This document shows positions 43,153 through 64,000 of a DNA stretch of 64,000 bases, piece after piece (the stretch's first letter is position 1; each line of letters opens with the position of its first letter). Where the stretch lies: positions 22,577,714 to 22,641,713 of the forward strand of contig CM049320.1 of assembly GCA_026874595.1 (NCBI GenBank), in the 5' to 3' direction. The notes beneath the pieces were generated by a model. The model saw only the letters and a program-made list of their open reading frames with translations, was not told the origin of the DNA and did no database searches. This DNA is from Sipunculus nudus (taxonomy: Eukaryota; Annelida; Sipuncula; Golfingiida; Sipunculidae). A program made the translations under genes and the position numbers.

Positions 43153-43254
43153 TCAAATCACCTTTTTCTTTAAGATGGCACCGTGTTCAACCAATATTTT
43201 TGCAACCCCGGTGTGACCTTCCTGCAGAGCGAACAACAGCGCAGTGAGCTCGTT
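43153..43254 (-). CDS. Ankyrin exon, cassette 8 type B, probably terminal
   Basis: Reads [20 protein letters not shown] and ends [11 protein letters not shown] then TGA. Acceptor ATGTTTCCAG. A GTGATT at 43161-43156 could be a donor (exon then 43162-43254), but no further ankyrin exon is seen for several kilobases and the stop comes two codons later, so a terminal exon is favoured. An AATAAA lies about 350 bp downstream on the minus strand (near 42800). Confidence 0.75.
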   Translation of the reverse strand, partial: NELTALLFALQEGHTGVAKILVEHGAILKKKVI

Positions 43255-43864
43255 CTGGAAACATTAATATAAATTTATATATATATATATATAACATGAT
43301 CCGAAAGAACAAAAGACCAAAGTTTCAAGAGACTGAACATTCTGGCAATTAATGATAATAATTATAATGGCTTGTCCACTTGATATAATTTATTTATATT
43401 GATCTTTCTCTAGTCAAAGAAAGTCTCTTTTTGATATCTTGTTATTGTTATATTGTTCGTATTTCAAAGTACTATACGAAGAACCGCTTCATCAAATGAA
43501 CCCCCACCCCGATAAAAAAAAAAACAAAAACACCTTAGACCATACATGTACGTAATCTCAGACCCCAGATATAAATTACATCGGGGCACATTATTTGAGC
43601 TGTGGAAACGTAATATTGTTTTATCTCGTTGTAATTGTGTTTTACGAAGATAACGTCTTTTGGTGTAAGTTACTTACGTCTGTAGTAATACTGACGTCTG
43701 CTCCGTTCTCGCACAGGAGCCTGACGACTTCATCATGGCCGTTCTGTGCAGCGACTATCAGAGCTGTGCTCCCGGTCTGGGGAAACATGATTTTATTATT
43801 CCAAGCAAATCACTGTTACCCTCCTACTGTTTGCATATTTGAAAATAAACTTTCATGATTGAGC

Positions 43865-43918
<54 letters not shown>

Positions 43919-46900
43919 AGCTGTTTTACTATTGTTTTACTATCTCCTCATGGCATTTCGGTTAACCCAAATTTTAAGAGGTAGCTTTAAAAACAAGATC
44001 CGGGGGAAATGAATTCTGTCTTTACATACCTGGAAAAACAGGGCAACATCAATATTCTGGTATGAGAGCCCAGTGGTTTTAATAGCAAGAAGAAATTACT
44101 ATTAACCCTACGTGTTCAGTCTGAGCATTCTTGTTATTCTTCTGAATAACATACATATGGGCCGTTTAGCTTTATGGAACGGTATTTTCGATTTGCCGAG
44201 ATATATGGCAGAGAGATATAAAAATATCGGAATTCTGGTGTTTATACCGATTCCTCATCGCTGTTCGGCTGAAGGGTAAATCATACAGTGAATATGACAT
44301 GACTATATGTTTTAGTAAAATCCCGTATTCGCACTTTATCACCATTCTGTTTACAATATGAATATGAATATGAACATACACATAGGCATTTTAGCTTTAT
44401 GGAACAGTATGAACAGTATTTTCTTCAGCACTCTAACATTATTGGACGTTGATAAGAGATTAAGTATAACCGAAAACCGTAGCAATGAAAATAACAATCA
44501 TATTAATAAATCATTATAATAATATTATTATTATTATCATTATTATTATTATTATTATGTAAATGCTCAGATTCAGCAGTAAGAAAGCAGGAAACTATTC
44601 ATAAAGAGAATTGTGAAGGCCTACACTGAAACATAATTCATATTAATTGTTTAATTGTAAAAAAAAAAAAAAATTGATTCTCAGTGCATTTGCCACTGAA
44701 AAACAAATATAAGTTTTAAGTATTACTCGTTTAGAGGAAACGGAGTATTAAATGATAATTTTTTTGCAAACAATGGTACTGCTGACCACCTTTATCATCA
44801 ATATTTTCACGAGAAAACGCACATAATCATTTACTGTTAATGTATCTTTCACGACATGTTTCATTGAACGTTCAAAAGAAAGCACTGGGAACATTATTAC
44901 AGTTATACCGTTATAAAAGACATATTTCAAATCACCCACATAGCTACAAGTTTATTCTGGATTTGTCATAACTGAATTTAGCAACCAATACCTTGTCGAT
45001 TTTGTTAACATTCGCTCCGTTGTTTATCAGCGTCGCTGCTGCATCGGCATGACCTTCATATGCAGCTTGCCAAAGAGGTGTTCTACCATCCTACAGCAAA
45101 CCAAGGTTTACGTTCAGTAAACTATGAGAGTTTCTTGTGTTTATTTGTCAGATTTTGTGCAGATTATTGAAAAGTAGTATATTTGCTTCTTAATTTTTCT
45201 TTCGACACACAAATGGGTCTGGATATATAACCATTAAATCAAGAATTGAGGATATGACAATTTAGGTTTTAAACAATGCTCCTTTAGGAGTGAATTCATA
45301 AGTGAGTTGTTATTATCCCTGTCCGTTTGTTCATGTGTGTTTATTGCCCAGTATATATTTTTATTTACATTTGAGAATCAGGATGATGAGGCGGGTCCAC
45401 TAGAATTGATTTGGCTTGGCGAATGTACTGGCTAATCCAAGTTAAAGGAATGTTTAAATATGAAAAAACCGTTCGGGCTGCGTTGCTTTGATATGAATAA
45501 TTTTAACTCGATGCGAGTACGGTTAATTACTCACTACGCTTTCAGAGTCGACAGTGGCTCCTCTCTCGCACAGAATAATGATCGCGTCGTTGTGTCCGCC
45601 GTTGGCAGCCATTCCAAGTGCACACTGTCCTTTCTGTCTCATAATCCCATGATATGTATTCATGTTAGGCATACAGTAACATGAAGTAGGTATAAACAGT
45701 AACTAAAACAAAGCTGATGTATAACTATCTAAAACTCCGAAAGCGCTCAATGACAATTAGATTAATTTCCCTTATTCATATTAAGGTACTTGTGTTATTC
45801 ATTATATTTTTTTACATCCGTAAGTGATCATATTGGTTTGTAAAAGCATAAGCTTTCAGGAAGTTTAAATTGACCAATGTAACAAAACCATTTTAGTCTT
45901 ACTAACCGACGCTTTAGAGGTGATATCGGCCCCGTTGTCAAGTAGATACTTTACAAGGAAAGTGTCACCCTTTTGAGAAGCAATCAGGAGGGGGCTGACT
46001 CCATTCTGTGTAAAATAAACAAAAATGTATTTTTTTTATATTATATTTTAATCAAACCATGATACTACTATCGTAAAAGTTCATGCCAATAAGAAACCAA
46101 TGTTTTTTTAAGGGTGTGTCCATGGCCGGTTGGTGGCACCGTCTACTTAATGTTGATGAAGGTTAAATATACGATAGGAATGATATATATGTTAAATACC
46201 ATCAGAGCGAATATCTAAGGATTTAACGAGATTGCAACATTATGCCATTGAGGCACGGTTTAGAACGGAGGACCTTCCACTCCATGATCCGACTCAGGAT
46301 CTTATGAGAAAAAGCAATTATTCTTACAAGAAAAAAGTATCAAATTGTCATGAAAAGTATGAAAAGCATAAATCAGTGCCAAATGGCGCTGTATTTGTAC
46401 AATTTTACAACATGAGATATTTCTTAACAAGCTTAAGGAATTGAATTTACAGTTATGCAATGAGCTATTGCTATAATTACTCAGTATACTATATATCTAG
46501 TGATATTGTAAAACATTTGCAAGATTACTAAAAAAAATAAGACGCAAATAAATGCCACTTAATAAAAAAATTATTGACAGAGTATGTCAACTGCACTCAA
46601 TAAGTTCATGTTAACAGGCAAAAATCACAACTTGAAGATGATGATTTGAGAAAAAATTATACAGGATTGACCTCTAAAATATGAACAAAAAATAAATAAA
46701 AAGTCCCTAAAAATTGTGTTACTTTACAAAGAGTATGGAGTGGTGGCACTAAGGAACAAAAATGTATGGTGAATGTGAAAATTAATTGTGATTTTTATGA
46801 ATTGGCTATAGGCATTTGGTGGATTAGTGAAACCTAAATGAACATGAATATACCTTATCTTGTTTATTCACGTTGGCCCCGTACTCTACAAGAATTTGCA

Positions 46901-47252
46901 CTATCTCTTTGTTTCTCCGGGCAACTGCCGGCCACATGGCAGTCTGAGAATCCTGCAAACAGAGAAATGTATTTCGGTGTGGTTAAGACCCGCACTTGTC
47001 ATATGTTCATTGTCATAAAGGCCCATGAGAGACTTGAACTGAGAACATTAGGACTTGGCCATCTCCAACAGGCAAAACAAAAACAATAGATTGGAATAAA
47101 AAAGCAAGTCATGTTTGTCTTCTCGTTAATTTATCCCCAGTTTTGTTCAAGTACGAATGGGAATAGTTCCACCTTCATTTGATGCAAGCCTTTGCTCCCA
47201 AGTAAACTCCTTATAGTTTCTACGAACGTAAAAGGCCTTTACGTACACACGA

Positions 47253-47332
<80 letters not shown>

Positions 47333-49512
47333 CTAACGCATGCAACCTGATGCTTTTTCTACATCAGTACAATGTCGGTCTCTATTGGATCTAAGGGTTT
47401 ATTTATACACGATGGTCACGTACTGCCTTGACTCCTACTCACAGTGTCAATACTTCTGAGCAATTTAGGGTGAATCTCCCTTAGATCCATGCCGGTTGGA
47501 GGTGTTATATGTAATTTTTATTCAGTAAGAAAGGAGAATACGTTTGTGAGGATAGTTCTGTGAGTGAATTTGCTAGACTCATAGATAAGACTAGAAATGT
47601 GCTCAGAGAGCGCAGACCTCCGCCAAGGAAGCTCATAACCTCAATATAGCATTGTCAGAAGGTAATTAAATAACAGAATTACCTCGTCTTCATGATTCAC
47701 GTCGGCCCCATTCTGACACAGGAGTGTAACGACATCAATCCGGTCGTTGTTGATTGAAAATATGCTCCTTATTCAGACAAATGATCCATGATACTGCGCA
47801 GGAAACATTACTGTTAAGCAAAATGGAATGTATAGGTATAGATTTTGCCTTTTTTGTACTCTGCCGAAGGTAGAATATTCATGATATTATCATTCAAGTT
47901 TGATAAATGATAACCTTTGAAAAATACTTAAATGTATAAGAAATTTGTTTAAGAGTGTTATCGTTGACGCGGCAGACTAAATTTAGTTGCTCACGTGCGG
48001 GAGAGTAATTTCTTTGGAACTGCTGCAGTATCATATATAGTCTATGGAGAGCACTCTGGAGAGTACCGCTTTTGTCTGGTGAGTGATTTTATGAAAATGT
48101 ATCCTATAACAGCATTTAACATTACGGGATAAGAGAAAGCAGAAAGTGGTTAACTTGATCAATACTTACGATCGATGCTCTGTTTGGGTCTGCTCCTTTA
48201 TCCAAAAGATATTTGACTATATCTTGGTATCCTCCCTGAGACGCAACCATCAGCGGAGTACTTCCGTCCTTACAAAATAATATGACGTAAGTATTTAATA
48301 ATTTCAATGTAGTTTGCTATATGATCTCGAGGGTTTCAATAGGTTATACCTCTTTACTGTCGATCTTCATTAACAATTATAGTAATACCTTTTCTATATT
48401 TTAGGTACTCTATTGAAGTCATCTTGTGTTTCATTCAGATAAATTAATAACTTAGGGGAAGACATTGAAAGTGGATTGTTTCCTTTTTTGTTAACATGTG
48501 GAAAAATTCATTTTTAATATGAATAGCAGTATTTTCACTGCCGTGGGCTTAAGTATGATCCAGACCGTGGTTTAATTAATCATTTAAATTGTTTAATATT
48601 GGAACACTAGACGGTGCTAAAAAAAAACAAAAGGATTATTTCCGTGAATAACAATAGTCGATTTCAAAGGAAACCCATCCACGACTCTCGCAAAGGTGGA
48701 ATTATTTACCACAAAAATCAGAACCACATAAGGTAAGGTAACAGCAAATATTACCGAAGCTGGATATTCCCTTGGGTCATCAACAATTTAAAAAAATTGC
48801 ATCAAATACTTATAATGATGAGTATACCCTGTATAGATTACTGTGTGGTGATACATATAATTAAAATTTTACCTAACGCTCCGAATAAAAAAGTGTAACA
48901 CAAAACATGCAAAAAAATTAACTACCTAATGTTACGATATTACTCAATATGTTGTTTTAGTAAATAATTAATTTTTTTTATTTATATTTTACACCTGAGT
49001 CAGATGAACCTGATAATTAAAACTATTTAAAGGAGCGTTTTGCTGATCAAGTATAAAATATCTATAATAATTTTAGAATCTGACACAACATTATGTAAAC
49101 TGAGCCAGGAGATAAATATTTACCTTCGCGACATGATCTACTTTCGCGCCTTGTGCAATTAACAGTTTTGCAACCTCAAAATGACCCTCAAACGCTGCCT
49201 TCCAAAGTGGAGTACGTCCATCCTTTTGACAGAAAGAGACAGAAAACAAATATAACAAAATTAAGAAAAAAAAAATAAAAAAAAACTGGAAAAAAAATGA
49301 AAGAGAAACAATGCGGATGCACGATCAAGTCCTTTCTCAAACGTAACACATACGCTTCTTTCCTCGTTAACATCGGCTCCTCGGTCACATAGAAACTTCA
49401 CCAGATCTAAGTCACCGTTGTCTGCAGCCAAACAAACCGCCGTTCCACCATCCTGAAATATAAATAATATATATGAAAAAGAATATATTATGAAAATATA
49501 AATATATTATGA

Positions 49513-49550
<38 letters not shown>

Positions 49551-51880
49551 ACTTTATTTTCAATAAATTATGATAAGAGAGAGGCACTCATCGGTATAAA
49601 AAACGCTTGTTCAAGTGCACCCGGTCCTCAGGAACATACTGAAAAACACAGGAGTGTCGGATTTTGATCTTGGCGGGCGTGCTCTCTACAACTACACTTG
49701 TCATTAAACTCAATATAAAATATAATTGTTTCACATTTAATTACTCCACATGAAAATTATGACAGTTAAGGTGCGATAAAGTTGTGTATGGTTCCCTTCG
49801 GGATCGGGTGAGCAAGACGCACCTTTGATTTTGCCGAAACTGCGGCTCCTTTTTCGATAAGATATTTGACGATTACAGAATGTTCTTTGCCACTAGCAAC
49901 CAAGATGGCCGCAGTCCCATCCTTTCAAACCATAAAAAAAAATAATAAAAACAATTATAAAATGAGAAACTGCTCGATGGCATCTTATGTATCGATTTGA
50001 TAAAATAATCGATTATTAAATAATATTGCTTTTTAATGATTAAACATTACTGTTGTCGTTTTAATTCATATATTCATACTGACACTAAATTATAATTGGG
50101 CTATGAGACAGTGCCTAATGTTTAATATATTGCCTAAAACACTTTACTGATCAATAGAATTCAAGAAGAATAGACATCAAGCATGTTGCAAGGTATCGAC
50201 TGTTTACAAAATATTTGAATATTTGCATACAAGGTAATCAAAAGCTGGAAATTAATTCAGATGAATAGCAGATGAAACGCTTGCCTCTGTAGCATGATTC
50301 ACGTCAGCGCCATGTTCGCACAGATATTTAACGATATCAAAGTGCCCGTTCTGAGCTGATACCATCAATGGTGTGCTCCCTTGCTAGAATTAGAAAACTT
50401 TGGTCACATGTGTGTAATCAAATAATAGATACCGATTTCCTTTGCAAATAATAAGGCCATAACTTTTAATAATCCTATCCATATGGGAAACTTTACGTTA
50501 ATCAACAGATGTCAGACACAAGTGGTTATATGTATTCCATATGTTCGTGACTCAGTAATTGATATGTGGATCGTGGTCTCATGTTCCGAATTAATACATT
50601 AAAACATTACTTGGATATAAAAGGGATATTAGATTTTATTTTTTTTTGCTCGATTCGTGCAGCTCATTTTTGTAAACTATATCATGCTTTACTTACGTAT
50701 TTCAATAAATACAATATATTTTCATCAAGTAATAAAAGGATTTTGTGTGTATTCAATGTGCGTATGGGTTTAGGATTAAGGGGGGGGGGGGGATCAACAC
50801 CCCAGAATTAATATCCTGTCCGCAAACAGGCACAAAAATAAATACAAATAAAAATTATTTTTCGCAGTAAATGGAGAGGGTTATTTTCATCACAGTAAAT
50901 GGAGGACGAAGGGCTAAACATAATAAAACACTTTCAGGATTAGATTTAGAATTAGTTAGTATACGGTTTGGTGTGTTCTCGCCACCAAAACCGCTGGCCT
51001 AGGTTTTTACCACGAAGACTCACTCACAATACACGCTGAAGTGATTGTCTAATGGGCATGCATGACATAAAACTTTATTTTCAATACCCACTGACGGTTT
51101 TTATGGCTGTTGCTCACATAAAGTTTTACGTTGTTACAAGAAAAGAAATGCTCCTACCCGTGGGAAGGATTATTACCTATAGATAATGACATCAACACGG
51201 TCTTTCTGTGTTTAGAATTTTCTTTCAAGAATGAAATTGATTTCTATTAACTGAAATGAACATGAAATCCTATACAGACGTAATATTATAATATAAAAAT
51301 AAATGCGTATCGGTATGTTCAAAATGAAAATGTTCGAAATGTTTGACAGAATTTCCTGCTTAGGGGTAGCCTCATAAACATGTCAGAAAATCTGGCAATT
51401 GTGACATGGTTACAGGTGGTGGAGTTCCAGTGCCGGATACTTACATTTCGATATATCAGTGTTTTATAATTAAACATCGCTATAATGTTTGTTTCGTTAT
51501 CATAATATAAGAAAAATGATATCTAACCAAGCCTACTGCCTTATACAATAGTACCTACCATATCAGTATGGTTCACATCCGCACCATGTTCAACCAGGAG
51601 GACGGCAATTTCATAATTCCCTTCATAAGCGGCCTGCCATAATGCACTCCTGCCGATCTGAGACGATATTATTTTTAAACAATTATAGGTATAGGCGTTA
51701 TGCATTAAAAGAGAACCAACATATGGACCAATAAAATGACATGGATGTAATAAATGAAATATAAAACTAAAGCATAACTTGTTGAATGATGTCATTTACG
51801 TCATACCAATACCAGGTTGATAAGGATTTTTCTGAGAAAGTGATAAAGTAATACCAGAATTATTAAATTATAACCATAAA

Positions 51881-51915
<35 letters not shown>

Positions 51916-54900
51916 GAATAAGAATAATAATAATAATAATCTCTTGTATTGAAAAGACTATTTTAACATATATGAAAATATATAATGTACGTCTTTATGT
52001 CGCTTTTTTCAGGTCCAGATATAGTATCTTGAAAAGAAAGAAGAGTCACCCAATCAGATCAAAATAGCAGACTTCCAAAATAAAATCAAAAGTTAATATA
52101 ACACAAACTGACATTTAAAATGGAGAACATGTATGGAACAGATGTATGTTTTCTCACTTTATTTGCAGACATAACATTGGCTCCTTTCTCCAGTAGGTGT
52201 TTCGCGACGTCTAGATGACCGTTGTTCGATGCCAGCGCCAGAATAGACACACCGGACTAAAATGAAATCAATATATAGGAATATATTCAAGAGTAAAACA
52301 GAAATTCATAGAAACTTTTGTTTAATAAAACTTCATATCAGTGGACTTAAAATTAACAACATGAACCATTGGTACAAGTTTATACAAGTTTTTAACGGAA
52401 ATTAACATAATTTTTCGTCCTAAATTTATATCCATTAAAATCATTATAATGAAATTGATATTAGTACATTCGGTATACAATGGTTTTTTTTTTCAAATAA
52501 AAAGATTAAAGAAATCAGACCAATCACGTCTCGAGTCTAGTAAATAGAAAAACTTTAACTAACGTGCATACAGACTATTGACAGAATGTTCAAATTTATT
52601 TATATTGGTCCATATTGAATTCGACCCTTAATGTCCAAATAGAACGGACCTCTAATGAAATAGAACATAACATCAAAGTAAAAGACGAAAATAATTTATA
52701 TATACATGATTATGTCACATTTATATATGATTTATGTAAAGTTATTTAAATTAGAATCGGAATCGCTGTTTGAGTCGATTTATCAAAGACTCTGAAAGGT
52801 ATAATATTAGAATAGAGATTTCGTTCATGGCTGTGTAAGTTTTGTTGTATAGAAAAACACACACACAAACGATGGGGGATGAACGCATGCCGTCTTTCAG
52901 GGGCAATAATAAAATTAATTGATGTCAAATAATAAGAAATAATAAGATACAGGAAGGGTACGTTTGCTGGGTCTGCGGGCAGTACTTAATATACAGAAAA
53001 ACATGGAGCATACAATACATACTACATAATTCCTTTTGTCTTTGTCTTTTTCGCACATAATCATTTATTGTCTGGGATGCTAACCTCTTCATTCTTAATA
53101 ATTTTAAGGTAGCAGAACTGGTCCCCGAGTATGACCTGACTTTGTGTCAGATTTTACTTTATGATGAACAATCTGCTGTTTTGGAACCCCTTAAAATATA
53201 CATTTTCTGAAAGCTTAGAATATTCTCTAAATTGTTGTAAACTTAAACTTTGGTTTGATGGAACATGTTTGAACTTATAAGCGTTTTAATTGAAGTTCCA
53301 GTATTTAACAAAAAAAGCTAGCTGTAAAGTGATTGACATGTCTGTAACAGTGCAGTAGTTAGTTTACAAACTTCCCATCAACACGTACAAAATCACCGTT
53401 TCCCACAAATATGAAACCGTCGATCAAAAAGGGCTTATGTGCATTAAATTTGCCCAATATTCAAGTATATTAAGTATACAATTTTATGAATTTATCCAGT
53501 TCTGCTTCACTTATCCATCAGTTTTATTTATTCTTTGTAGGACGCGAATTACAATTTCAGCAAAGGATGTGTTTATCTGCATGTATAAATCCTTTATTAA
53601 ATATAGGGGCTATCAGCAAGCATTTATTGCTTATCTTTGTACTGATGTTGATATCTCCGCCGTGTTCCAGCAACACCCTGACAACATCAGTATTTCCCTT
53701 ACCAGCTGCCAAAGACAAAGCACTGATTCCTTTCTGAAGGTAGAGTCAACAGTTAATGCATAGTTCATCCTCCTATGAAACTGTCGAAAGTGAATGTCTA
53801 TTTTATCTTCCGAAGAACGGAAAATTTTAATTTGAACGATTAGGTAAAATCGGATGTAGATTTATTTTCTGGAAGTATCCTGAGAAGTTAATGTATATTT
53901 CATCTTCCTGTCTCAATATTCATATCATATGAGGCATGTGAAGCAAATTATGAATGCATATGTACCAAAGTTCAGGTATATTTTCCCATCGAATCACCGG
54001 ATTATTATCATACCTTTATGAAATACCGTGGCTTGAGGAGCCTTAGGTCGGTTAAGGTACTGTATGTAATGCATTTCATTTGTGGATCGGATGTATCATG
54101 CATGGTCTGTCATATATTTCTTGTAGAAATGTTCTGTCCAATTGTACCCGTAGACCGGTCAGACCAGTGTTTATCAAATTATATTTTTACATTGTTTACG
54201 CCATGATAAACCAATGATGGTCTTATGACGGTCTAACAATTCGTATTTGTAAATTGGGTTTGCCAAAAACCGTTTAATGCACTGTAATCATAGCTCAACC
54301 ATGGATTTATAATAACATTTGGTATATCGGATACACCTTGTTCTAAAAATTTGTGTTTTAATTGAACTGACTTATTTTATCTTATGATTGGCTGGTTTAT
54401 GCTCCAACATATTGTAGGTATTGATTGCTCGGACCAAGCTTTAACATTTAACATTACACATTGTTTCTCTGGATAGGATATATCACAGTCTAACAAATGG
54501 TATTTGTAAATTGGTCATGCCATGGTCTTGCGCATTGTGTTTGCTTATTGGTTGGACCAAGGTCTAATATATATATAAATGTGATTCACAGTTGGGTAGC
54601 GCTGCAACACAATGTTTGTATTCCTTGACCTAACGCAATTTTGTCTAGTATTAACCAGGAGCTCTTTATTTTGTAACATTCTATTTATTTAACTTACTTC
54701 GTCGATTGCATTCACCTCCGCTCCCTTCTGTATCAGCAGTTTTACAATCTCTACATATCCGTTCTGCGAGGCCACCATCAGGGGTGTTGACATCTCCTGA
54801 AAGTAACAGTAAAGCATTTTTTCTGGTTTCCCTATTTACTTGGATTTCACTTAATTATAACTGATGTCGTGGATTATTTAATATAGCTTATTACAAGAAC

Positions 54901-55366
54901 CACAAAAAATATAATTACAATTTCTAAGATAAGAAATTGAATATAAACATGTAGTGGGTTTCGGGTTATCACGCAAATGTAACTACAGAAAGGAGAGCGT
55001 CTATGTGATTTTCGCTTTAGTCAATACTTTCAAGACAAACTAAAAAAATAGAGAGAATAGAGAGAATATTCTTGTTTGGAGATAACTGAATAATCAAATA
55101 ACCGTTAAATCTGAAACGCTTCCATCTTCATCACTTACCTTATAAACCGCTGATTTGTATTTTTTTACAGTTCCCTTACCTTGTCTTTGGCATCGACAGT
55201 CGCTCCAGCATCAAGCAAAGCCGTAACCACATCCTGGTGTCCTTCGAATGCTGCTTGCCAGAGTGGTGCCCGTCCTTCCTTTAACGCAAAAGGTAAGGAA
55301 ATTAATTTTTTTTCCGTAATGTCTGAATATACGTATCTGACTAGACGTATCTGACCTATATCAATC

Positions 55367-55445
<79 letters not shown>

Positions 55446-58400
55446 GAAAAGTGAAAGATGACGCCCAATAATGCTATATGTTGTCCTGTGTGCTGAGATA
55501 GACCAACATGCCTGAACATCATAGAAATCATATATGTATGTATGTATATATATATATATAGATATATGTGTGTGTGTGTGTGTGTGTATAAATGTGTGTT
55601 TGGAATGTACGTGCTTACACATAAGTACGATACACCCGTTTGTATTTAATTCGAGCAAGGGAGCACACCTTTTATGCTAGGGATTGGGAATACCCATGCC
55701 CATAAAAGCAGTACTTCGGATTTCTTTAATACCAAGAAGGAACTTATTGAGTTTTTTGTTGTTATCCACCTGATCATATATACCATACCTTGTCCTTATG
55801 GTTCAGAATAGCTCCATTTTTGCACAGCAACGTTACAACTGGCGCATGCCCATTATTAGCAGCAAGTCCGAGGGCCATCACATTCATCTAACAATAAATA
55901 GCAACAATTAAACCTTAAATACTTAGTAAAGCTCAGAACGGCTAGTGCGGGTAAGCGTTTGCTGTCAAATATGATTCCCTTTGCAGACATGGTTTATTTT
56001 GAATACATTCATTTAAACAACATACAGGAAAGTTATGATAAAATAAATAAGTACGCGGATATACGCGGATACTCTTGTATGAATTTCGGTAAGAACCGCA
56101 TTTTTTTCAATATGTTCAATTAAAAAGGCTAGGTGTAAAGTCTTGCGGCATAATAACGTGTTATCGCCAGAGCGGAAAGCATTCACCAAAAAAACCGATG
56201 TCGGAATAATAGTTCGGTAAAGAGAGGTTAAGCATGCCTGCATGGTCACTGTTTAAGAAGTATAGAAAGAAGTAACACACTAAAGACCATTCCACGTGCC
56301 TTTGCGATTCTGTTGACATTAGCCCCAGCTGCTATCAAAGTTTCCACTACCTTGGTTTCGCCTTTCATTGAAGCAACCATCATAGGGGTAACTTTTTTCT
56401 GTGTAAATAACACAAATTATTTAACATATTTCAAATAAATGTATCAAAAATGTTTGCTTATAGATAATTCAGTGCAGAAGAGTAGTTGCTTACAATTTAA
56501 TATATAAGAGTCTTTTTGTTGCATATATTAAACGCATTCTCTATTTGTTGGTTTTCTTACAAGTGGTTTAAATAGTACTGATAACACACGACTGACGCAT
56601 ATTTACTTTTTGCATATATACGTCATTCCCATATAAGTAAGTAACGTAAGATATACACGATATATATCATGATTATCATATGCTAAAAATGTTTACAGCG
56701 TAAATATTTTTGTGTATAAGTGTATCCTTTTCAATGTATAAGGTCACCTCATCAGCACAGTCTATAAATGCTCCTTTCTCCAACAACAGCTTTACAATAT
56801 CGTTGTATCCACCGGCAGCGGCTGTCCAAAGTGCACTCTGCTTGTCCTGTAAAGAATATAAGACCACCCGTGGGATTGATCAGATGTAGTCTTGATGCAC
56901 CGGTTAGTCCAATTAGATAGGGCGACTATGTGAATGCTTTTGGTTCAATCAGACGAAGTCTTTATAGACAGGCGGTCTTTCAGGCAGGTTCAAATGTATG
57001 TATATATATGTGTGTGTGTGTGTTTGTGTGTATGATGTTTTGTGAGGGTGTCTATGTTTGTGTGATTGATATATGCTTAATAATTTATATAATGTGATGG
57101 TTTCACAATATAAGAAACTTCAAATAGTATACATTTCTTACAAATTTATTATATCTTCAAGTCTTATATCCGCATCAATTGCCAAACAAAGGAATTTATA
57201 ATGCTAGTGTTCAAATGATGTAATGAAGGAATTTGCTTGTTATGTTGTCGGACATTAGTCTAAAATTTATTCAGCATTAAGATATACAAATATATACTTA
57301 TTACAGACATAACTTACGCTGTCCTTGTGATCAATATTTGCTCCTTTTTCCAAGAGCAGGGTTGCAATATCTAAGTGGTTGTTATGAGCAGCAAGTATTA
57401 GTGGTGTTATTCCTTTCTGAGAAGCCAGAAAAATGCATGTCAGAACTCTCAGCACATTGGTAGTTGGAATCATATCCGATTTCAAGAATCATGAATTCAT
57501 GAGACAGAACATGAGACAGGAACCATTATATACTGTATAACTGAAGTCTTTTGAATGAAAATGAGAATAATATATACGCCTATAGTTAATAAGAGGGTTT
57601 AAGCCTCTTTTAAGTGATGATGAACAAAGTTTAATATCAATGACACAATGATGTTCTAGCGCTGATTATTAGTCGAAAGCACGATTACGTTTTAAAAGCA
57701 GCACTAAATGTAAATCTATTTATTTGTGATAGCACTAAACATCAACAGATAAAACACAGATATAAAAGATAAAATTTGGGCGTCATACTTAAAAGTAGGA
57801 AATGACAATGGGTACCCAAAGGAGATCCTAGAGATATGCCTTGGCACTAGAATATTTGCTGCTATTAAAAGTCAATATCAAGTCAGTTGTAATGTTATTG
57901 ACTGTTATTAGTGCTGTAGGTAATTTAGTAAACTGTATCAAACAGATTAAGATACATCCCAGTGTACGCATTTAGTGTAAAATGTATCTTACCTCGGTGA
58001 TTAGGTTAACATTGACAATCTGTCCAGCAAAAGGTCTACAACACCATAGTGTCCATTCTGACTTGCATTACATTACAGAGTAGTTCAACGATGACAGATA
58101 AAGAACAATAAGGAAATACTTACCAATCAACTGGCAAGATTTAATATTAACCTTATCTGGGTCTTACCTTCGTTATTTGGTTAACATTGGCTCCATTGTC
58201 CAGCAAAAGAACAACAACTCGGCAGTGTCCATTCTGGCTTCCAACACACAAGGGCGTGGTACCTTGCTGATGGGAAAAGAATAATATAGACCACTAGCGA
58301 CAATCAACCACTAGCGACAATGCGGAAACGTCCACGCAGTGAGAGACCTTGCGCATTAGGTCAAAATTAATATCAGCTTGACGTATGTCACCTCTGACTA

Positions 58401-61400
58401 TTACTTTGTCCGAAGGTTAATTTAAAACAATGGCAATATATGCAATCTAGAGCCTGCACGACTAGAAGAAAGGGGAAAAACAGAAAAGATGGAAATATAT
58501 CCGATGCTTTTCACTCAGGGGACTTTACAAAGTAAACCAGCAGAAAAGCAATATCGATATAGATATAAACTAATTAATCCCATGTAGGGGAGGATGAATA
58601 AATATATTTCACGAAGCGGTCTTACCTCGTCCTCCTTGTTGACGTCGATTCCCTTCTTTATCAGTAAAGCAGCGAAGTCGTACATACCTTCATACGAGGC
58701 CAGCCACAACAGGTTCCTACCATCCTAGAGGTGAAATATCATATGACATATATACAGAATCAATTCAGAACAGTACAAAACATCACATAAACTGGGTCAG
58801 GTCATTGCTTTCCTATAATATCTTTATTATGATCTAATGTGCAAGGACTCTTTATTATATAAATACAACACGGATTTTACGCTGGATCAATTTATTTAAA
58901 CATAACACTTCATGTTTAAACACAGTATGAAATTTATTAATGCAAGGGTTCTCTTTTTGATCTCATTTAGAGTCTCTTTATTATTATCGCCTGTGCTAGA
59001 TCTCTTTATTTAAAAAAAAACACTGAGTATACCCTGGATCCACTTATTTCAATGCAACACTTAATGTTTAAATATTGCATGGATTGTATTACCGCAATTG
59101 TTCTCTTTTCGATCTGATATAGATTCTCGCGATAACCTATGATTTTCTTGTTGGAATATTTGTCAGAAACATAATATGACATTGTATTAAACCATTGTGC
59201 AAAATTTCGTTATACCATTCAAGCATAAACTGGGAGTGTATTATATTTGAAAGAGCACAGGAATTTAAGGAATAATAAACTGAGATAAAGGGTCCAATAT
59301 AGTCCGATACTATGCTTGAAGCATATTATCAAAATAATATTAAATTTTTTATTGGCTAAAAATGTATGCAGTTTTTTTTTCTTGTCCTAATCTATGTTGT
59401 TGATTTATTCAGTCATTGGTTACTCACTGGAGAAACATGGTCAACATCCGCCCCTCTCTGACAAAGCAACATTGCGATGTCGTTATGCTTGTTGGTGACA
59501 GCCGTTCGCAGAGCGTTTGTCCCATTCTGTTTCAAGGGAGAAACTTTGTGATGAGTAAATGAATTGATACACTATTGTTAATATACACTTGTTCACTATC
59601 GTCCTTATCAGTAAAACAGTATAAGAGTTATATTAACATATCAGATTCAGTGTGAAAGGCATTGACGTGAATAGAGCAGACGGCGAAGTAATCTGGTGAA
59701 AATTCTATATAAAACAAGTGACCCATGGGTCATGACGCTCAGCTGACTGGGAAGAGATTCGCAAAAGGAAATTTTTTCATCTGAATGGTAGTATATACCC
59801 ATTCAACTGAAGCATCAAACAGATTAACCAACAGGGCAAAATTGTGTCTGTATTTTTAAAGGTCTCAAAAATAGAGAAAAAAATTCGTAAAAAATCGAAA
59901 AATACAGGTGGCGCCACCAGTCTGCAGGAACTGATGGAATATCTCATGATCAATATGTATGCAAAAAATCATGACCATCAGTGATGTAGTTAATGAGATA
60001 TTGATGTTTTTGTATGAAATTTTTTACTTTTCTGGGGGGTACTTTGGGGCCCCATAGCTCGAAGGATATGGGTAACAGAGACCTAATTTCTGGTTTCCAA
60101 GGAGATTTTCATGGACCTCTCAGAATGCCAAGTTACAAGGTTCTAGGTCCAGCGGTTACGATTTGTGCCTGGTTAACGGACGGACAGACGGACAGACGGA
60201 CGACGGACAAAGAGTGATCGCTATAGCTCAGATGACTTTCAGTCAGCTGAGCTAAAAAAGGGAAAACACAGGCTTGAGGGAGATGGCAGTTATGCCAGAC
60301 CCTGTGTCAAGAAATGATAACAACTAAGTCTTAAGTGGTCGCATGCATAAAATAAACATTTTTTTTCTGTGATGCGAGATTTCTATGCTTTGAATACTGC
60401 GATTTGTTTTATCCCATTTGATAAAGAAAGAATAATTTTATAGAAGAATAAAGATACAACCTGCGTTTAAACATTACTGTGAGGCAGGTAGAAGTGATCG
60501 CCATTTCATGCAACAATACACTAGCTGTTTTCCTGAATGGAATCGGCCTTTATGAATCAAAGTGAATAAAGGAGTACCGCAAGAATGCATAATATGCCCG
60601 TCGTAGGTACTCTATCGTTATGCATTGCTTTTGCGTAAAAAAATAATTCAGGCGAGATACTGTATTAAATTTCATTCACAATGAAACAACTTTTAGGTAG
60701 GTTATTCTGGCGTCACCATAAGGGAGTCTTTTGACCTTAGACCTTACCAGATATATGCAGATTTTGCCTATAATCCAGGTTGACTGAGACACGTTATCAA
60801 TCAATATTCACTGCGAGTTTTGTGAAAAGACATTTTTATGGTAGGTTTCAGCGATGACGCCATATTAATGTGTAGACGGCCGGTCAGATATAAGGAGGAA
60901 TGGGCAGACGCCGCCGCGCCTTAACATGACCCGTCTATAATGATATTAATCATATTGAATAAACATGTACCTTCGCCACTTTCTTCACATCAGCTCCATT
61001 GTTCAGGAGAAATTTTACAACATCTACATGACCGTTTTGGGCTGCTACTATCAAGGCCGTGCTACCTTCCTGTAAATATAGGAAAATAAAAATCATGTAC
61101 AAGAAAACATATTAGCAAATACAGGCAGGCGGTTATACACTGCTGTTATGCACCGAAATCATCCCATATTTCCTTCGTTCTAACTTTGTTCAGCAGGTTT
61201 TTCGAGGCCTCGCCATCAGGTGGCACAGGGCCAAGAATCAAACCGAAGAGAGTGGCGTGTTGCGGATTTAAACTTGGAGCTGGATGCACAAAGCAACGCC
61301 ACGCTCTCATTGGCCTGAAAACAATTCTTGCTGATGGTAAAACAAGGAGAATCTTGCTTTACAAAGCAGCGGCTAAAGCGAACGAGATCTGGATCGACTG

Positions 61401-62479
61401 CAGATCGAACCGCTATATAATGTATGTGATCAGCAAAAAATAGCTGACCTATTTCCATACCTATAATGAAAATTAATTTTTAAGAAGGTAGAAGAAAGCA
61501 TTGCATTTTTTCCCAGATTTTCACAATGCGATTTTTGTACCTAATCTCTCGGCCGCTGCTGTCTGTCTATCCAGGTACTATTTGTCTGAATTCAATAAAA
61601 TTTTTAGCTTTAGGGAATAGTTTTCCAGTTCTTTTGTGTAGTTCACATTGGGAAATGCATAAAAGTTTCATAGTTATTAATACCCTGTTTTTTTAAGATT
61701 TTATGGACTTCTGGGTTCGATTTATGAGATTTGTTGACAACTTCATTTTCAATAAAGCAAGTCTTTATTGAAAAAAAAAAATACACATGATTCGATCGAG
61801 AAAGTTTGTAACTCACGTCTAGTCTGCATTTGGTGAAAAACACATTTTAGTTTGGTTTCTTTAAATTTCAAGCGCAGCCTACGTATAGTTAAATTTCGTA
61901 TATGACATGTTAAGCGCCTCTACTTTAATCCACACCAACTTATGCATTGTGGCTCCTGTTATAGTGTTCATTGCTAACAATATAAAGTGACCATTGCTTT
62001 CATTTAGTCATGATTGTTTCAGTCAAATATTATTGTAAATTAATGAGATTCATAAAAAAAATTTTCCTTTGACATCTTCAGATGACCTATATTCGAAATG
62101 CATTACATTCTACTAAATAAACAGAAAACATTAAGATCACGTTTTGCGCTTTTATCTGAAATATTCCTTTATTATCACAGTTGTTGATTTCAGTATGTAG
62201 TTAGAACAAATTTTCAGAAAATATTTATGGTGTAATTTATGGTTTCTTGTAGTATGGGCGAATACCCCACTGATAAGCCTCGAGGAGCAAAGTTATTGCG
62301 AACTGTATAAAAGGTGTGTATACGTATATGGAACCACAAGAATAATACTTTCGGTATATTTATTGAATCTTTTCAATTACCTGGTCTGTATGGTTTACGT
62401 CTGCACCATTTTCAATCAACAATTTTACAAGGTCTGTCATGCCCTGGTAAGACGCGCTCCACAGTGGTGTTCGGCCATC
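43153..62479 (-). CDS. Large ankyrin-repeat protein gene, 5'-partial, one repeat per exon
   Basis: At least 25 intact exons on the minus strand, each coding one ankyrin repeat (33 codons; one of 32, the last 31 plus two) with phase-0 introns throughout. Together they give about 824 residues of uninterrupted ankyrin solenoid. Each repeat shows the family pattern: xGxTPLxxAAxxGHxxVVxxLLxxGAxVNxxDx. No other domain, signal peptide or membrane segment is visible; the 5' part lies beyond the window. Exons fall into eight A-C-B cassettes, three with an extra exon X. Two further repeat exons (47683-47793 and about 57993-58091) are decayed. Three exons have non-GT donors. No repeat keeps the usual His of TPLH. 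Partner and function are unknown: ankyrin arrays bind proteins, and nothing here says which. The last exon may be 43153-43254, where a stop follows two codons after the repeat. Confidence 0.9.
43678..43776 (-). CDS. Ankyrin exon, cassette 8 type C
   Basis: Reads [20 protein letters not shown] and ends [11 protein letters not shown]. Acceptor TTTCCCCAG, donor GTAAGT. Confidence 0.92.
43867..43913 (+). repeat. (AT)n microsatellite
   Basis: About 23 AT units in an ankyrin-gene intron. Confidence 0.95.
44992..45090 (-). CDS. Ankyrin exon, cassette 8 type A
   Basis: Reads [20 protein letters not shown] and ends [11 protein letters not shown]. Acceptor TTTGCTGTAG, donor GTATTG. Near-consensus type A. 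Confidence 0.93.
45538..45633 (-). CDS. Ankyrin exon, cassette 7 type B, 32 codons
   Basis: Reads [20 protein letters not shown] and ends [10 protein letters not shown]. Acceptor TGAGACAG, donor GTAGTG. One codon shorter than the others, missing from the loop at the repeat boundary. Confidence 0.9.
45907..46005 (-). CDS. Ankyrin exon, cassette 7 type C
   Basis: Reads [20 protein letters not shown] and ends [11 protein letters not shown]. Acceptor TTTTACACAG, donor GTTAGT. Confidence 0.92.
46854..46952 (-). CDS. Ankyrin exon, cassette 7 type A
   Basis: Reads [20 protein letters not shown] and ends [11 protein letters not shown]. Acceptor CTGTTTGCAG, donor GTATAT. Less typical opening but the type A Trp is kept. 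Confidence 0.9.
47254..47330 (+). repeat. (AT)n microsatellite
   Basis: Nearly uninterrupted AT run in an ankyrin-gene intron. Confidence 0.95.
47683..47793 (-). pseudogene. Decayed ankyrin exon, cassette 6 position B
   Basis: The 3' two thirds are a clear type B repeat ([20 protein letters not shown], then HEDE and a GTAATT donor). The 5' third is degenerate: from a good acceptor (CTGCGCAG) the frame reads YHGSFV, then TGA, then IRSIFS. The exon is 111 bp, four codons longer than normal. Unless skipped, it would end the protein here. Length, phase and position show it was once the type B exon of this cassette. Confidence 0.8.
48170..48268 (-). CDS. Ankyrin exon, cassette 6 type C
   Basis: Reads [20 protein letters not shown] and ends [11 protein letters not shown]. 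Acceptor TTTTGTAAG, donor GTAAGT. Confidence 0.92.
49124..49222 (-). CDS. Ankyrin exon, cassette 6 type A
   Basis: Reads [20 protein letters not shown] and ends [11 protein letters not shown]. Acceptor TGTCAAAAG, donor GTAAAT. The intron to the previous exon is only 131 bp. Confidence 0.92.
49354..49452 (-). CDS. Ankyrin exon, cassette 5 type B
   Basis: Reads [20 protein letters not shown] and ends [11 protein letters not shown]. Acceptor ATATTTCAG, donor GTATGT. FLCDRG ending as in other type B exons. Confidence 0.92.
49514..49550 (+). repeat. (AT)n(GT)n microsatellite
   Basis: AT units followed by GT units in an ankyrin-gene intron. Confidence 0.95.
49823..49921 (-). CDS. Ankyrin exon, cassette 5 extra type X
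   Basis: Reads [20 protein letters not shown] and ends [11 protein letters not shown]. Acceptor GGTTTGAAAG, donor GTGCGT. Shares the ASGK/AAGK opening with the other extra exon at 53635-53733. Confidence 0.9.
50285..50383 (-). CDS. Ankyrin exon, cassette 5 type C, GC donor
   Basis: Reads [20 protein letters not shown] and ends [11 protein letters not shown]. Acceptor AATTCTAG, donor GCAAGC. Apart from the C, the donor matches the strong consensus expected of GC-AG introns. Confidence 0.9.
51559..51657 (-). CDS. Ankyrin exon, cassette 5 type A
   Basis: Reads [20 protein letters not shown] and ends [11 protein letters not shown]. Acceptor TCGTCTCAG, donor GTAGGT. Type A Trp present. Confidence 0.92.
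51880..51942 (+). repeat. (AAT)n microsatellite
   Basis: About 20 AAT units with a few AAG interruptions in an ankyrin-gene intron. Confidence 0.95.
52158..52256 (-). CDS. Ankyrin exon, cassette 4 type B
   Basis: Reads [20 protein letters not shown] and ends [11 protein letters not shown]. Acceptor CATTTTAG, donor GTGAGA. Type B by the A.NNGH segment. Confidence 0.9.
53635..53733 (-). CDS. Ankyrin exon, cassette 4 extra type X, damaged donor
   Basis: Reads [20 protein letters not shown] and ends [11 protein letters not shown]. Acceptor TACCTTCAG is good. At the repeat boundary the sequence is AAG-ATAAGC where GTAAGC is expected, i.e. the first donor base (plus position 53634) is A instead of G. 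Read-through reaches a TGA about 25 codons on. The coding part is otherwise intact, so this may be a very recent lesion, an assembly error or an exon spliced at low level. Confidence 0.75.
54698..54796 (-). CDS. Ankyrin exon, cassette 4 type C
   Basis: Reads [20 protein letters not shown] and ends [11 protein letters not shown]. Acceptor TTACTTTCAG, donor GTAAGT. Canonical type C. Confidence 0.92.
55180..55278 (-). CDS. Ankyrin exon, cassette 4 type A
   Basis: Reads [20 protein letters not shown] and ends [11 protein letters not shown]. Acceptor TGCGTTAAAG, donor GTAAGG. A TC/TA microsatellite follows in the upstream intron. Confidence 0.92.
55371..55441 (+). repeat. (TC)n(TA)n microsatellite
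   Basis: TC run followed by a TA run in an ankyrin-gene intron. Confidence 0.95.
55789..55887 (-). CDS. Ankyrin exon, cassette 3 type B
   Basis: Reads [20 protein letters not shown] and ends [11 protein letters not shown]. Acceptor TATTGTTAG, donor GTATGG. Opens with Met but splice sites and phase are those of an internal exon. Confidence 0.9.
56300..56398 (-). CDS. Ankyrin exon, cassette 3 type C, GC donor
   Basis: Reads [20 protein letters not shown] and ends [11 protein letters not shown]. Acceptor ATTTACACAG. The base after the last codon begins GCACGT, not GT. Moving to the next GT would shift the frame and hit a stop at once, so a GC-AG intron is the simplest reading. Confidence 0.85.
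56748..56846 (-). CDS. Ankyrin exon, cassette 3 type A
   Basis: Reads [20 protein letters not shown] and ends [11 protein letters not shown]. Acceptor TCTTTACAG, donor GTGACC. Type A Trp present. Confidence 0.9.
57318..57416 (-). CDS. Ankyrin exon, cassette 2 type B
   Basis: Reads [20 protein letters not shown] and ends [11 protein letters not shown]. Acceptor CTTCTCAG, donor GTAAGT. Canonical ankyrin spacing. Confidence 0.92.
57993..58091 (-). pseudogene. Decayed ankyrin exon, cassette 2 position X
   Basis: Sequence coding [14 protein letters not shown] and ending ...NVNLITE before an intact GTAAGA donor, but broken. A TAA replaces a codon in the 5' half (ACTACTCTGTAATG), one base is missing after CTGGACA, and no AG acceptor is found at the 5' edge. 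Long stretches match the neighbouring exon 58168-58266, so it looks like a tandem copy that has died. It sits where the extra exon X occurs in other cassettes. Confidence 0.8.
58168..58266 (-). CDS. Ankyrin exon, cassette 2 type C
   Basis: Reads [20 protein letters not shown] and ends [11 protein letters not shown]. Acceptor CCCATCAG, donor GTAAGA. Close in DNA sequence to the decayed exon just downstream at about 57993-58091. Confidence 0.9.
58626..58724 (-). CDS. Ankyrin exon, cassette 2 type A
   Basis: Reads [20 protein letters not shown] and ends [11 protein letters not shown]. Acceptor CACCTCTAG, donor GTAAGA. NLL replaces TPL, but the Trp and the SYEGM segment keep it in type A. Confidence 0.88.
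59428..59526 (-). CDS. Ankyrin exon, cassette 1 type B
   Basis: Reads [20 protein letters not shown] and ends [11 protein letters not shown]. Acceptor TTGAAACAG, donor GTGAGT. The LLCQRG end is typical of type B. A 540-bp repeat element sits in the intron between this exon and the one at 60971. Confidence 0.88.
59713..60258 (+). mobile_element. Second-family Helentron/pearl-like element, short copy
   Basis: Starts ACAAGTGACCCATGGGTCAT (TGACCCATGGGTCA is a perfect palindrome, 59719-59732), then GCTCAGCTGACTG. Ends CAGTCAGCTGAGCTAAAAAA, the inverse of that subterminal box. A 31-nt hairpin at 60224-60254 and GACGGACAGACGG microsatellite at 60177-60208 precede the end. About 545 bp, no ORF. In an ankyrin-gene intron. 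Confidence 0.75.
60971..61069 (-). CDS. Ankyrin exon, cassette 1 type C
   Basis: Reads [20 protein letters not shown] and ends [11 protein letters not shown]. Acceptor TATTTACAG, donor GTACAT. Its opening [13 protein letters not shown] is the same as in the exon at 43678-43776, at the far end of the array. Confidence 0.9.
62381..62479 (-). CDS. Ankyrin exon, cassette 1 type A
   Basis: Reads [20 protein letters not shown] and ends [11 protein letters not shown]. Acceptor TACTTGCAG, donor GTAATT. Trp at position 7 marks type A. First exon seen in the window; upstream exons must lie past its end. Confidence 0.9.
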
Positions 62480-62856: not shown

Positions 62857-64000
62857 AACTAGATGTGTCGGAACGACACGAATGCCCCCGCCTGGGGCAA
62901 ATTAGAAACATTTGTTAAATTTTGTAATTCAGGAGGTGTAATATGGTCAAAAGTAGGTCAACAAGGGCAAAATACAAACTCGATCTGTAACGGATCATTA
63001 TCAAGCAACACACCAAAAATCAGGCCAGTATCTGCAGGCATTGTAAAAAAAGTCCATACATGTGCAAACATTAGGCCAGTATCTGTAAGCATTGCATTGC
63101 AAAACTAGAATATTAGCAAAACCTGATAATCAGTTATAAATTTAAATTGGAGAGGTATGTACCATGTTTCATAACAATCCACCAAATGCTTCCTGAGAAA
63201 TAAGCTCCTAAGTTTTTTTCTATATTAAGCTATGTGACCTTGAAAAGTAGGTCAAGAACACCCATCTTTGAACTTGACCAAGATTTTGTAAATATGATGC
63301 ATTAGCACTGAAGAAATGAAGTTCCTGTGTTGAATACCTATGGAGATATCCTGCACAAAAGGCCAACATTGAAAAATCTGAAAAAAATTCATTAAAAAAT
63401 CAGAAATTGTAGGTGGTGCTTCCAAAATTGTGCAGCTAGCACAGACCGTCATTTCAAATGATCATAGTAAGTTTTGTGAAAATCCACACAATGGTTCCTG
63501 AGATATAAGCTTCTGAGTGTTTTTCTATAATCAGCTCTAAAACGAAGAAAAATAGGTCAAGGTCACCCATCTTTGCACTTGACCAAGATTTTGTTGATAT
63601 ACATCTTCACTGATGAAATTAAATTCCAACGGTGAATCATTTTAGAGATATCCCGCTCACAAGGCCAAAATTGAAAAATCCGATAAAAATTTATTAAAAA
63701 ATCAGAAATTGCAGGTGGCGCCACCAAAATTGTGAAGCCCATACAGACCATCAGTCCCAATGATCATAGTAAGTTTTGTGGAAATTCACACAATGGTTCC
63801 TGAGATATAAGCTTCTGAGTGTTTTTCTATGATCAGCTCTAAAATGTAGAAAAATGGGTCAAGGTCACCCATCTTCGAACTTTACTGAGATTTTATCGAT
63901 ATACATCTTCACTGATGATATAAATTTCCAAGGGTGAATCCTTTTAGACATATCTCGCTCACAAGGTAAAAGTTAACAGACGCGGACGGACGGACGGACA
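62857..64000 (+). mobile_element. Third-family Helentron/pearl-like element, right-truncated by window
   Basis: Start ACTAGATGTGTCGGAACGAC: GTGTCG-GAA-CGACAC hairpin at 62865-62879, then TGCCCCCGC. Body contains tandem copies of about 303 bp, and the window ends inside GGACGGACGGACGG microsatellite. A likely 3' end of the same family is at about 5805-5877. Confidence 0.65.
63180..63970 (+). repeat. Tandem repeat of about 303 bp, about 2.6 copies
   Basis: GGTTCCTGAGATATAAGCTT occurs at about 63493 and 63795, with a diverged match near 63187. Each unit also holds GGTCAAGGTCACCCATCTT and the next unit's ATCTTCACTGATGA. The AGGTGGCGCCACC palindrome is perfect in only one unit. Confidence 0.85.

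Follow-up and report, generated by a model that had tools for sequence, protein, structure and literature searches.

Single-repeat ankyrin exons of Sipunculus nudus arranged in a three-exon order, with exon types that differ mainly on the concave groove

The stretch analysed here, hereafter the window, comprises 64,000 nucleotides of the Sipunculus nudus genome (C15:22577714-22641713 of the 1.43 Gb assembly GCA_026874595.1, contig CM049320.1), and all coordinates below are window coordinates unless a contig is named. On its minus strand it carries 27 ankyrin (ANK) exon sites, each a single 33-residue ankyrin repeat, of which 24 belong to three types, A, C and B, following one another in this order; the residues that set the types apart lie mainly at positions of the concave face. 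All 27 sites that a first-pass annotation had listed from the letters were found where it had placed them. In 25 of them an open frame of 33 codons follows an AG acceptor, and a phase 0 donor stands after 24 of these 25 open exons (21 GT, 2 GC and 1 AT). A profile made from the open exons recovered the 27 sites, 25 of them with at least 47 bits, scores that for the open exons are high by construction, and the sites at 47683 and 57993 with 33.7 and 23.7 bits. No further ankyrin exon was detected by this profile search on either strand of the window, the next best match reaching 6.8 bits. Thirteen spliced exons matched Pfam Ank_2 with an E value of 1.4e-105 and 346.6 bits against a cut-off of 27.3, which places them in Pfam Ank / Ank_2, and 19 spliced exons matched ankyrin-1 with an E value of 1.5e-127.

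Read along the gene, from high to low coordinates, the array enters the window with an A exon, the type with Trp at position 7 (62381..62479; AG acceptor, GT donor, 33 codons), followed by C (60971..61069) and B (59428..59526); these and the following exons have an open frame and splice signals unless otherwise stated. The second cassette consists of A (58626..58724), C (58168..58266) and B (57318..57416), with a decayed copy of the C exon between the latter two (57987..58067; listed at 57993 in the first-pass annotation as one of three extra exons, X). A (56748..56846), C with a GC donor (56300..56398) and B (55789..55887) make up the third. In the fourth, A (55180..55278) and C (54698..54796) are separated from B (52158..52256) by an extra exon with an open frame and AT in the donor place (53635..53733). 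The fifth likewise holds an extra exon (49823..49921) between C, again with a GC donor (50285..50383), and B (49354..49452), its A exon lying at 51559..51657. The sixth has A (49124..49222), C (48170..48268) and a B exon remnant devoid of its 5' third (47683..47751), which matches profile positions 16-33 and whose start at 47751 is our own reading. A (46854..46952), C (45907..46005) and B (45535..45633) form the seventh; this B exon had been placed at 45538 and is present, its true end lying at 45535. The eighth cassette comprises A (44992..45090), C (43678..43776) and the last ANK exon (43153..43254, listed at 43162), which is B by place and not by tree. Here the 33 codons (43254-43156) run into an in-frame TGA at 43155-43153, and an AATAAA lies further on at 42800-42795. 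The exon can alternatively be read as 93 nt followed by a GT donor; it is probably the terminal exon, at which the gene ends.

Type labels were first assigned by eye from residues. The nearest relative of an exon carried the same label in 22 of 24 cases, and leave-one-out typing returned an exon's own label in 19 of 24, with A and C sharper than B. In a tree of 26 window exons the eight A exons stood apart from the rest (support 51), seven of the eight B exons fell together with the extra exon 53635, and C was split. A tree of 35 exons from the whole gene, leaving out 57993, placed all ten A exons in one group (support 65) and all ten C exons with 49823 in another (support 56), B being what remained between them. 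When 70 exons from three places in the genome were used, all 18 Trp exons and three others formed one group with a support of 90. The expectation that each type would form a clade thus held for A, nearly held for C and failed for B and X. The extra exons do not constitute a single class of their own: no open frame runs through 57993, which matches its neighbour C58168 at 78% identity along 83 bp (58162-58243) and is a broken copy of it, 49823 groups with C45907, and 53635 and 49823 do not make one clade. The last exon, 43162, clusters either with a C exon or with B-like exons of the upstream part, but not with the set of B exons. As a separate observation, 53635, 49823 and an exon of the chromosome-8 array (C8:13120847; L037:5848-5946) have Gly-Lys at positions 11-12 in common and all lie between a C and a B exon; they form no clade, and the shared residues hint at a real fourth exon type.

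Without the extra exons the order A-C-B occurs eight times in succession, as the first-pass annotation had proposed. Among these 24 exons similarity has a period of three (z = 9.8, p = 0.00005): the mean BLOSUM62 score was 2.13, 1.97, 2.12 and 2.25 at lags 3, 6, 9 and 12 and 1.37-1.58 at all remaining lags up to 11. Similarity thus peaks at multiples of the block length, the mark of a super-repeat of the kind produced by block expansion in nebulin. Period 6, a multiple of three, gave z = 5.7 and periods 2, 4 and 5 gave nothing, and period 3 was also found on the columns outside the residues used as diagnostic in the first-pass annotation (z = 4.6). With 53635 and 49823 kept in the row, no period of three is seen over its whole length (z = -0.3), and the dropping of exons was therefore tested in its own right. 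Among all pairs of exons that can be dropped from the row of 26, the best is exactly 53635 and 49823, and none of 1500 shuffled rows reached the real score with its own best pair removed.

We retrieved 140 kb upstream of the window and typed the exons there blindly, with models made from the window exons alone. Nine more ankyrin exons, which the first-pass annotation had not seen, were present between about 74.3 and 65.5 kb; each can be read as a stretch of 33 codons flanked by splice signals. The first repeat, 74305, was undecided; 73771 was typed as A and 73270 as C; 69861 and 69307 were undecided, C leading B by 1.9 and 0.4 bits, respectively; 68463 was typed as B, 66987 as A, 66000 as C and 65577 as B. 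The two upstream A exons led the next type by 29 and 19 bits and the two C exons by 23 and 24 bits, and each of these A exons is directly followed by a C. The row so traced comprises 36 exon sites from about 74.3 kb to 43.15 kb, 27 in the window and nine upstream, and in the whole gene a C follows directly after A in 10 of 10 cases, after which come one to three other exons. The types might be a chance grouping by eye among ordinary ankyrin repeats, since labels were set by residues seen and 5 of 24 exons were mislabelled in leave-one-out typing. Against this stand the shuffling result, the A-C pairing in exons not seen when the types were drawn up, and the recurrence of the A group elsewhere in the genome (see below), and we give such a chance grouping practically no credence.

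How old the duplications are can be read from fourfold sites and introns. At fourfold sites identity was 25.9% within types (621 comparisons) and 29.1% between types (1318 comparisons). Introns close to the exons were 35.2% identical within and 34.2% between types on the upstream side (p = 0.17) and 27.1 and 29.4%, respectively, downstream. A self-comparison of 42-64 kb revealed no intron homology between cassettes; apart from simple and tandem repeats it found only the exon copy 57993 derived from 58168, a similarity that does not extend into introns, and a weak exon pair, 50285 and 43678. Because fourfold sites are saturated and introns cannot be aligned, the cassette duplications are old and the copies are not being homogenised. 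Gene conversion among exons of the same type, which would keep the types alike to this day, would agree with the finding that cassettes next to each other resemble one another no more than those far apart; we reject it on the fourfold-site and intron comparisons, in which exons of one type show no elevated identity at fourfold sites and no clear resemblance of their flanking introns, and regard it as very improbable. Distances among A exons and among C exons agree across cassettes (r = 0.69, p = 0.006), and those of B agree with neither. That the array grew by duplication of three- or four-exon blocks, as first proposed, is still the simplest explanation, and the record that would document it in introns, fourfold sites and cassette distances is largely erased.

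The columns that separate the types at p < 0.01 are 1, 3, 7, 8, 11, 12 and 32, with column 22 following at p = 0.0135. The excerpted text of PMC8781854 gives the concave interaction surface of ankyrin repeats, in the same numbering, as positions 1, 2, 3, 7, 8, 11, 12, 32 and 33. All seven of our type columns fall within these nine (chance probability 8e-6), as do seven of the eight at p < 0.05 (6e-5). Jointly, the nine concave positions place the types 1.84 BLOSUM units apart (z = 10.8). The nine published convex positions separate them by 0.20 units (p = 0.02), and positions 17-33 alone carry a weak type signal (p = 0.003-0.004). The type signal is thus concentrated on the groove and not confined to it.

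These figures bear directly on the possibility that the pattern is pure history, that is, that three-exon blocks were duplicated, leaving the period behind as a neutral remnant, and that the types have no present role. Ankyrins are known to expand mainly two, three or four repeats at a time, four being commonest (Bjorklund et al. 2006, PMC1553488, in the part consulted), and the agreement of A-A and C-C distances across cassettes also fits such a history, as does the small type signal outside the concave face. A neutral relic should, however, spread evenly over the exon, so that the concentration on the concave positions counts against it: fourfold sites and introns have no type signal, and the concave positions have one that is far stronger than that of the 24 other columns, where the types differ by 0.15 BLOSUM units (z = 2.9, p = 0.005). 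We therefore consider selection on groove residues a better explanation for the distinctness of the types than recent duplication, and judge pure history to be unlikely, without dismissing it.

Position 7 is the strongest type column. In this gene the A exons have Trp at position 7 in 10 of 10, Arg at position 3 in 8 of 10 (otherwise Gln), Tyr or Phe at 11 in 8 of 10, Glu at 12 in 6 of 10 and Asp at 32 in 8 of 10. The C exons have Met, Ile, Leu or Cys at position 7 in 10 of 10, Ser at 3 in 6, Val at 8 in 8, Gln at 11 in 9 and Asn at 12 in 7. Histidine, which as His7 of the TPLH motif is a consensus feature of ankyrin repeats and not a defining one, occupies position 7 in only 1 of 69 exons from three arrays. 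Membership of the ankyrin family stands despite its absence, because PMC8781854, in the excerpted text, reports human clusters with a reduced or unconserved TPLH histidine. Helix 1 of the repeat spans positions 5-11 (PMC8781854, in part). Positions 3, 7 and 11 are four apart, with 7 and 11 in helix 1, and we infer that they would form a stripe on one face.

The three types could serve folding in place of binding. A, C and B would then be a stacking code in which residue 7, replacing the TPLH histidine, fits the neighbouring repeat, and the order would be kept for stability of the solenoid. The prominence of position 7, the invariant Trp of the A exons, the almost complete loss of His7 and the structural role of TPLH (PMC8781854, as excerpted) are all in line with this. 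The pattern is, however, also carried by columns 3 and 12, which the same text describes as highly variable, and by column 11, which it assigns to the concave face, and Trp exons are spaced by two, four or seven exons in other arrays of the genome. A stacking code thus appears rather improbable, to about the same degree as a neutral relic. For binding there is a precedent in canonical ankyrins, whose groove of finger loops and A helices accommodates extended targets (PMC4358367, in part). Hydrophobic groove residues of ankyrin G were mutated in that work, and the site-1 pair weakened the binding of Nav1.2 and not that of neurofascin. Hydrophobic residues spaced by 33 proved important there for one or other of the targets. 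By our own matching, these residues (Phe, Phe; Ile, Leu; Leu, Phe, Leu; 33 apart) fit position 3 of successive repeats in the ankyrin-1 alignment.

We then looked for relatives elsewhere in the genome. A pattern of an acceptor followed by Asp-Gly-Arg-Thr-Pro/Ala-Leu-Trp gave 11 matches, and the reversed control 1. One match lies on C3, four on C8 and six on C15, of which four belong to this array, one is near 2.07 Mb and one near 27.07 Mb. In the C8 array (13.096-13.124 Mb) an exon typed as C follows the Trp exon in four of four cases, and a damaged C-like exon follows the fifth Trp exon. A period of three is present in the array at C15:27.055-27.065 Mb (z = 4.0, p = 0.0016, 17 exons). Its first three Trp exons are each succeeded by a C exon according to the tree (three of three), and in two of three cases according to the window models; behind the fourth Trp exon the nearest one visible, 27064795, is not a C exon, with some 300 bases between them not covered. 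Further on in the same array Trp exons stand two apart, and one of the two with a visible next exon is followed by C. With models that include the relatives, the exon after Trp was C in one of two cases on C3 and in none of one near 2.07 Mb on C15. Two further stretches of 10 kb, one on C9 and one at C15:27.84 Mb, contain ankyrin exons with no Trp at position 7. The A type is thus older than the spread to these places, and the same is probably true of the A-C pairing; the strict triplet is seen in this gene and in part of one other. As controls we took 16 ankyrin arrays without introns from this assembly, with 7-13 repeats each; their period-3 z values ranged from -1.5 to 1.5, a comparison that has less power, and to that extent weakens our case, since these arrays are short and several are near-copies; by our sums Trp is at position 7 in 0 and His in 93 of their 136 repeats. 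In this connection we observed nearly identical intronless ankyrin frames of up to 486 codons with TPLH largely kept on many small contigs (C61, C62, C66, C72, C74, C77, C83, C89 and C90) and a second kind on C92 and C94. They may stem from a symbiont, a contaminant or a recently copied element and are unlike the exon-split arrays of the large contigs.

Taking these results together, we consider it reasonably probable that the window holds the 3' three quarters of one animal gene whose traced coding part is a row of single-repeat ankyrin exons, and that this row arose from an ancient, already differentiated exon run that was multiplied in blocks and whose types were then held distinct mainly by selection on the binding groove. 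An ancestral run of A, then C, then a B-like exon would have been multiplied, most simply by unequal crossing-over between introns. As the introns are phase 0 and each open exon has 33 codons, any exon can be gained, lost or skipped without disturbing the reading frame. The copies would have diverged until synonymous sites and introns retained no trace, and selection would have held the residues that distinguish A, C and B, mainly at the concave positions 32, 1, 3, 7, 8, 11 and 12. Spliced as one transcript, the exons would yield a long solenoid whose groove, by analogy with that of ankyrins, would carry three alternating stripes, Arg3-Trp7-Tyr/Phe11, Ser3-Met/Ile7-Gln11 and a smaller or variable one, repeated about ten times. 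The proposal of the first-pass annotation that the solenoid surface should repeat every three ankyrin units is thereby supported, and this surface is likely to be a binding surface with a three-unit period. The product may act as a scaffold for a partner that is extended or repetitive, or for multiple copies of a single short motif, bound in three-unit register.

Several observations weigh against this account. Besides the small signal in the 24 non-concave columns, positions 17-31 also carry type signal (p = 0.027), which fades over positions 13-31 when column 22 is omitted (p = 0.08), and there is type signal at second codon positions of the second exon half (p = 0.0003) and at third codon positions of the first half (p = 0.003). 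Labels were assigned by residues seen, which renders tests on positions 4-16 and 21-23 partly circular; outside the diagnostic columns only 1, 3 and 32 pass, all three of them concave (p = 0.015). In a comparison of A with C over three places, six of the nine columns at p <= 0.01 are concave (p = 0.005) and columns 5, 22 and 29 are flagged as well. B is a grade and not a clade, tree supports are modest, as expected from 33 columns, and in the 70-exon tree the C group is not clean, C45907 lying outside and the upstream exons 65577 and 74305 inside. Finally, the C8 array has extra exons and no overall period of three (z = -0.7), and other arrays have some Trp exons that are two apart and some that are not followed by C. 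A more far-reaching version, in which a dispersed family of ankyrin-only solenoids has a groove code of Arg-Trp-Tyr, Ser-Met-Gln and small-Asn, held by selection across chromosomes and despite divergence to saturation, as a periodic ruler that reads a partner with a matching repeat of about three units, strikes us as doubtful at present. If it were true, the number of cassettes and the optional fourth exons would set length and register.

The surroundings of the array were searched for further parts of the gene. Splice and codon scoring, trained on the ankyrin exons of the window and hence biased toward them, yielded no terminal-domain exon near the ankyrin-exon score in 74.3-90 kb or 30-43 kb: the best scores were 14.3 and 17.2, respectively, whereas the 14 top-scoring exons of the ankyrin region reached 33-45. 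A weak candidate for the first exon lies at 74669-74583. Ten of the 35 minus-strand open reading frames (ORFs) of at least 55 aa in 74-90 kb were scanned and none had a Pfam match. A 302-base unit forms a tandem array of 2.6 copies at 63176-63966, in the interval that separates exon 62381 (A) from exon 65577 upstream. On the plus strand a frame at 27996-28388 matches the ciliary protein CFAP107 (Pfam PF22595, E value 1.4e-39) and is the only recognisable neighbour among six window ORFs scanned with Pfam; this match, like the introns, is in keeping with an animal genome. Two overlapping plus-strand frames at 39250-39880, one with a row of Cys and His that by eye resembles a PHD-type finger and the other without a Pfam match, are perhaps a mobile element. 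Far upstream of the ankyrin gene, at about 137600-164000, two open frames of 105-117 and 148-154 codons recur almost unchanged, three and four times, which probably reflects a tandem segmental duplication.

In the open-licence literature we found no account of an ordered three-type ankyrin exon array with groove-specific residues. Ankyrin block expansion (PMC1553488) and a poorly conserved histidine at position 7 in certain human clusters (PMC8781854) are already known; the groove pattern of three types, in which this histidine of TPLH is nearly gone, appears to be new. The array represents an ankyrin group in which this histidine has been given up almost everywhere and a position-dependent set has taken its stead. 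It offers a natural experiment, a repeat protein whose binding face has stayed periodic although its duplications have left almost no other trace, and with it a way to separate selection from duplication history in solenoid proteins. A testable prediction is a ligand with a three-unit period that is contacted by the Arg-Trp-Tyr stripe.

In the canonical ankyrins AnkR, AnkB and AnkG, 24 ANK repeats precede ZU5, UPA and death domains. Like the present gene they have a long ANK row, and the inner groove binds extended peptides at several sites (PMC4358367, in part). They differ in that TPLH is largely kept in the ankyrin-1 stretch aligned; here the row of 36 exon sites has His at 7 nearly absent and a three-unit pattern, and it ends in a stop codon with no exon near ankyrin-exon scores in 30-43 kb, no other domain having been found so far. 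With the block-duplicated ankyrin arrays described in the consulted part of PMC1553488, our array shares similarity that peaks several repeats away and not at neighbours; it differs from them in that the unit is traced exon by exon, in that three types are split mainly by groove residues and in that synonymous and intron traces are lost. Exons that span whole repeat units, for which the excerpt of PMC3995336 cites Street, Rose and Barrick 2006, are a feature in common with the ankyrin genes mentioned there. The super-repeats of nebulin (PMC1553488, as excerpted) are likewise fixed blocks, of seven modules, that are repeated many times in order and match the exon pattern. Nebulin, however, has another fold and four exons per block of seven, with junctions rarely in the linkers, whereas in the S. 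nudus array one exon corresponds to one module.

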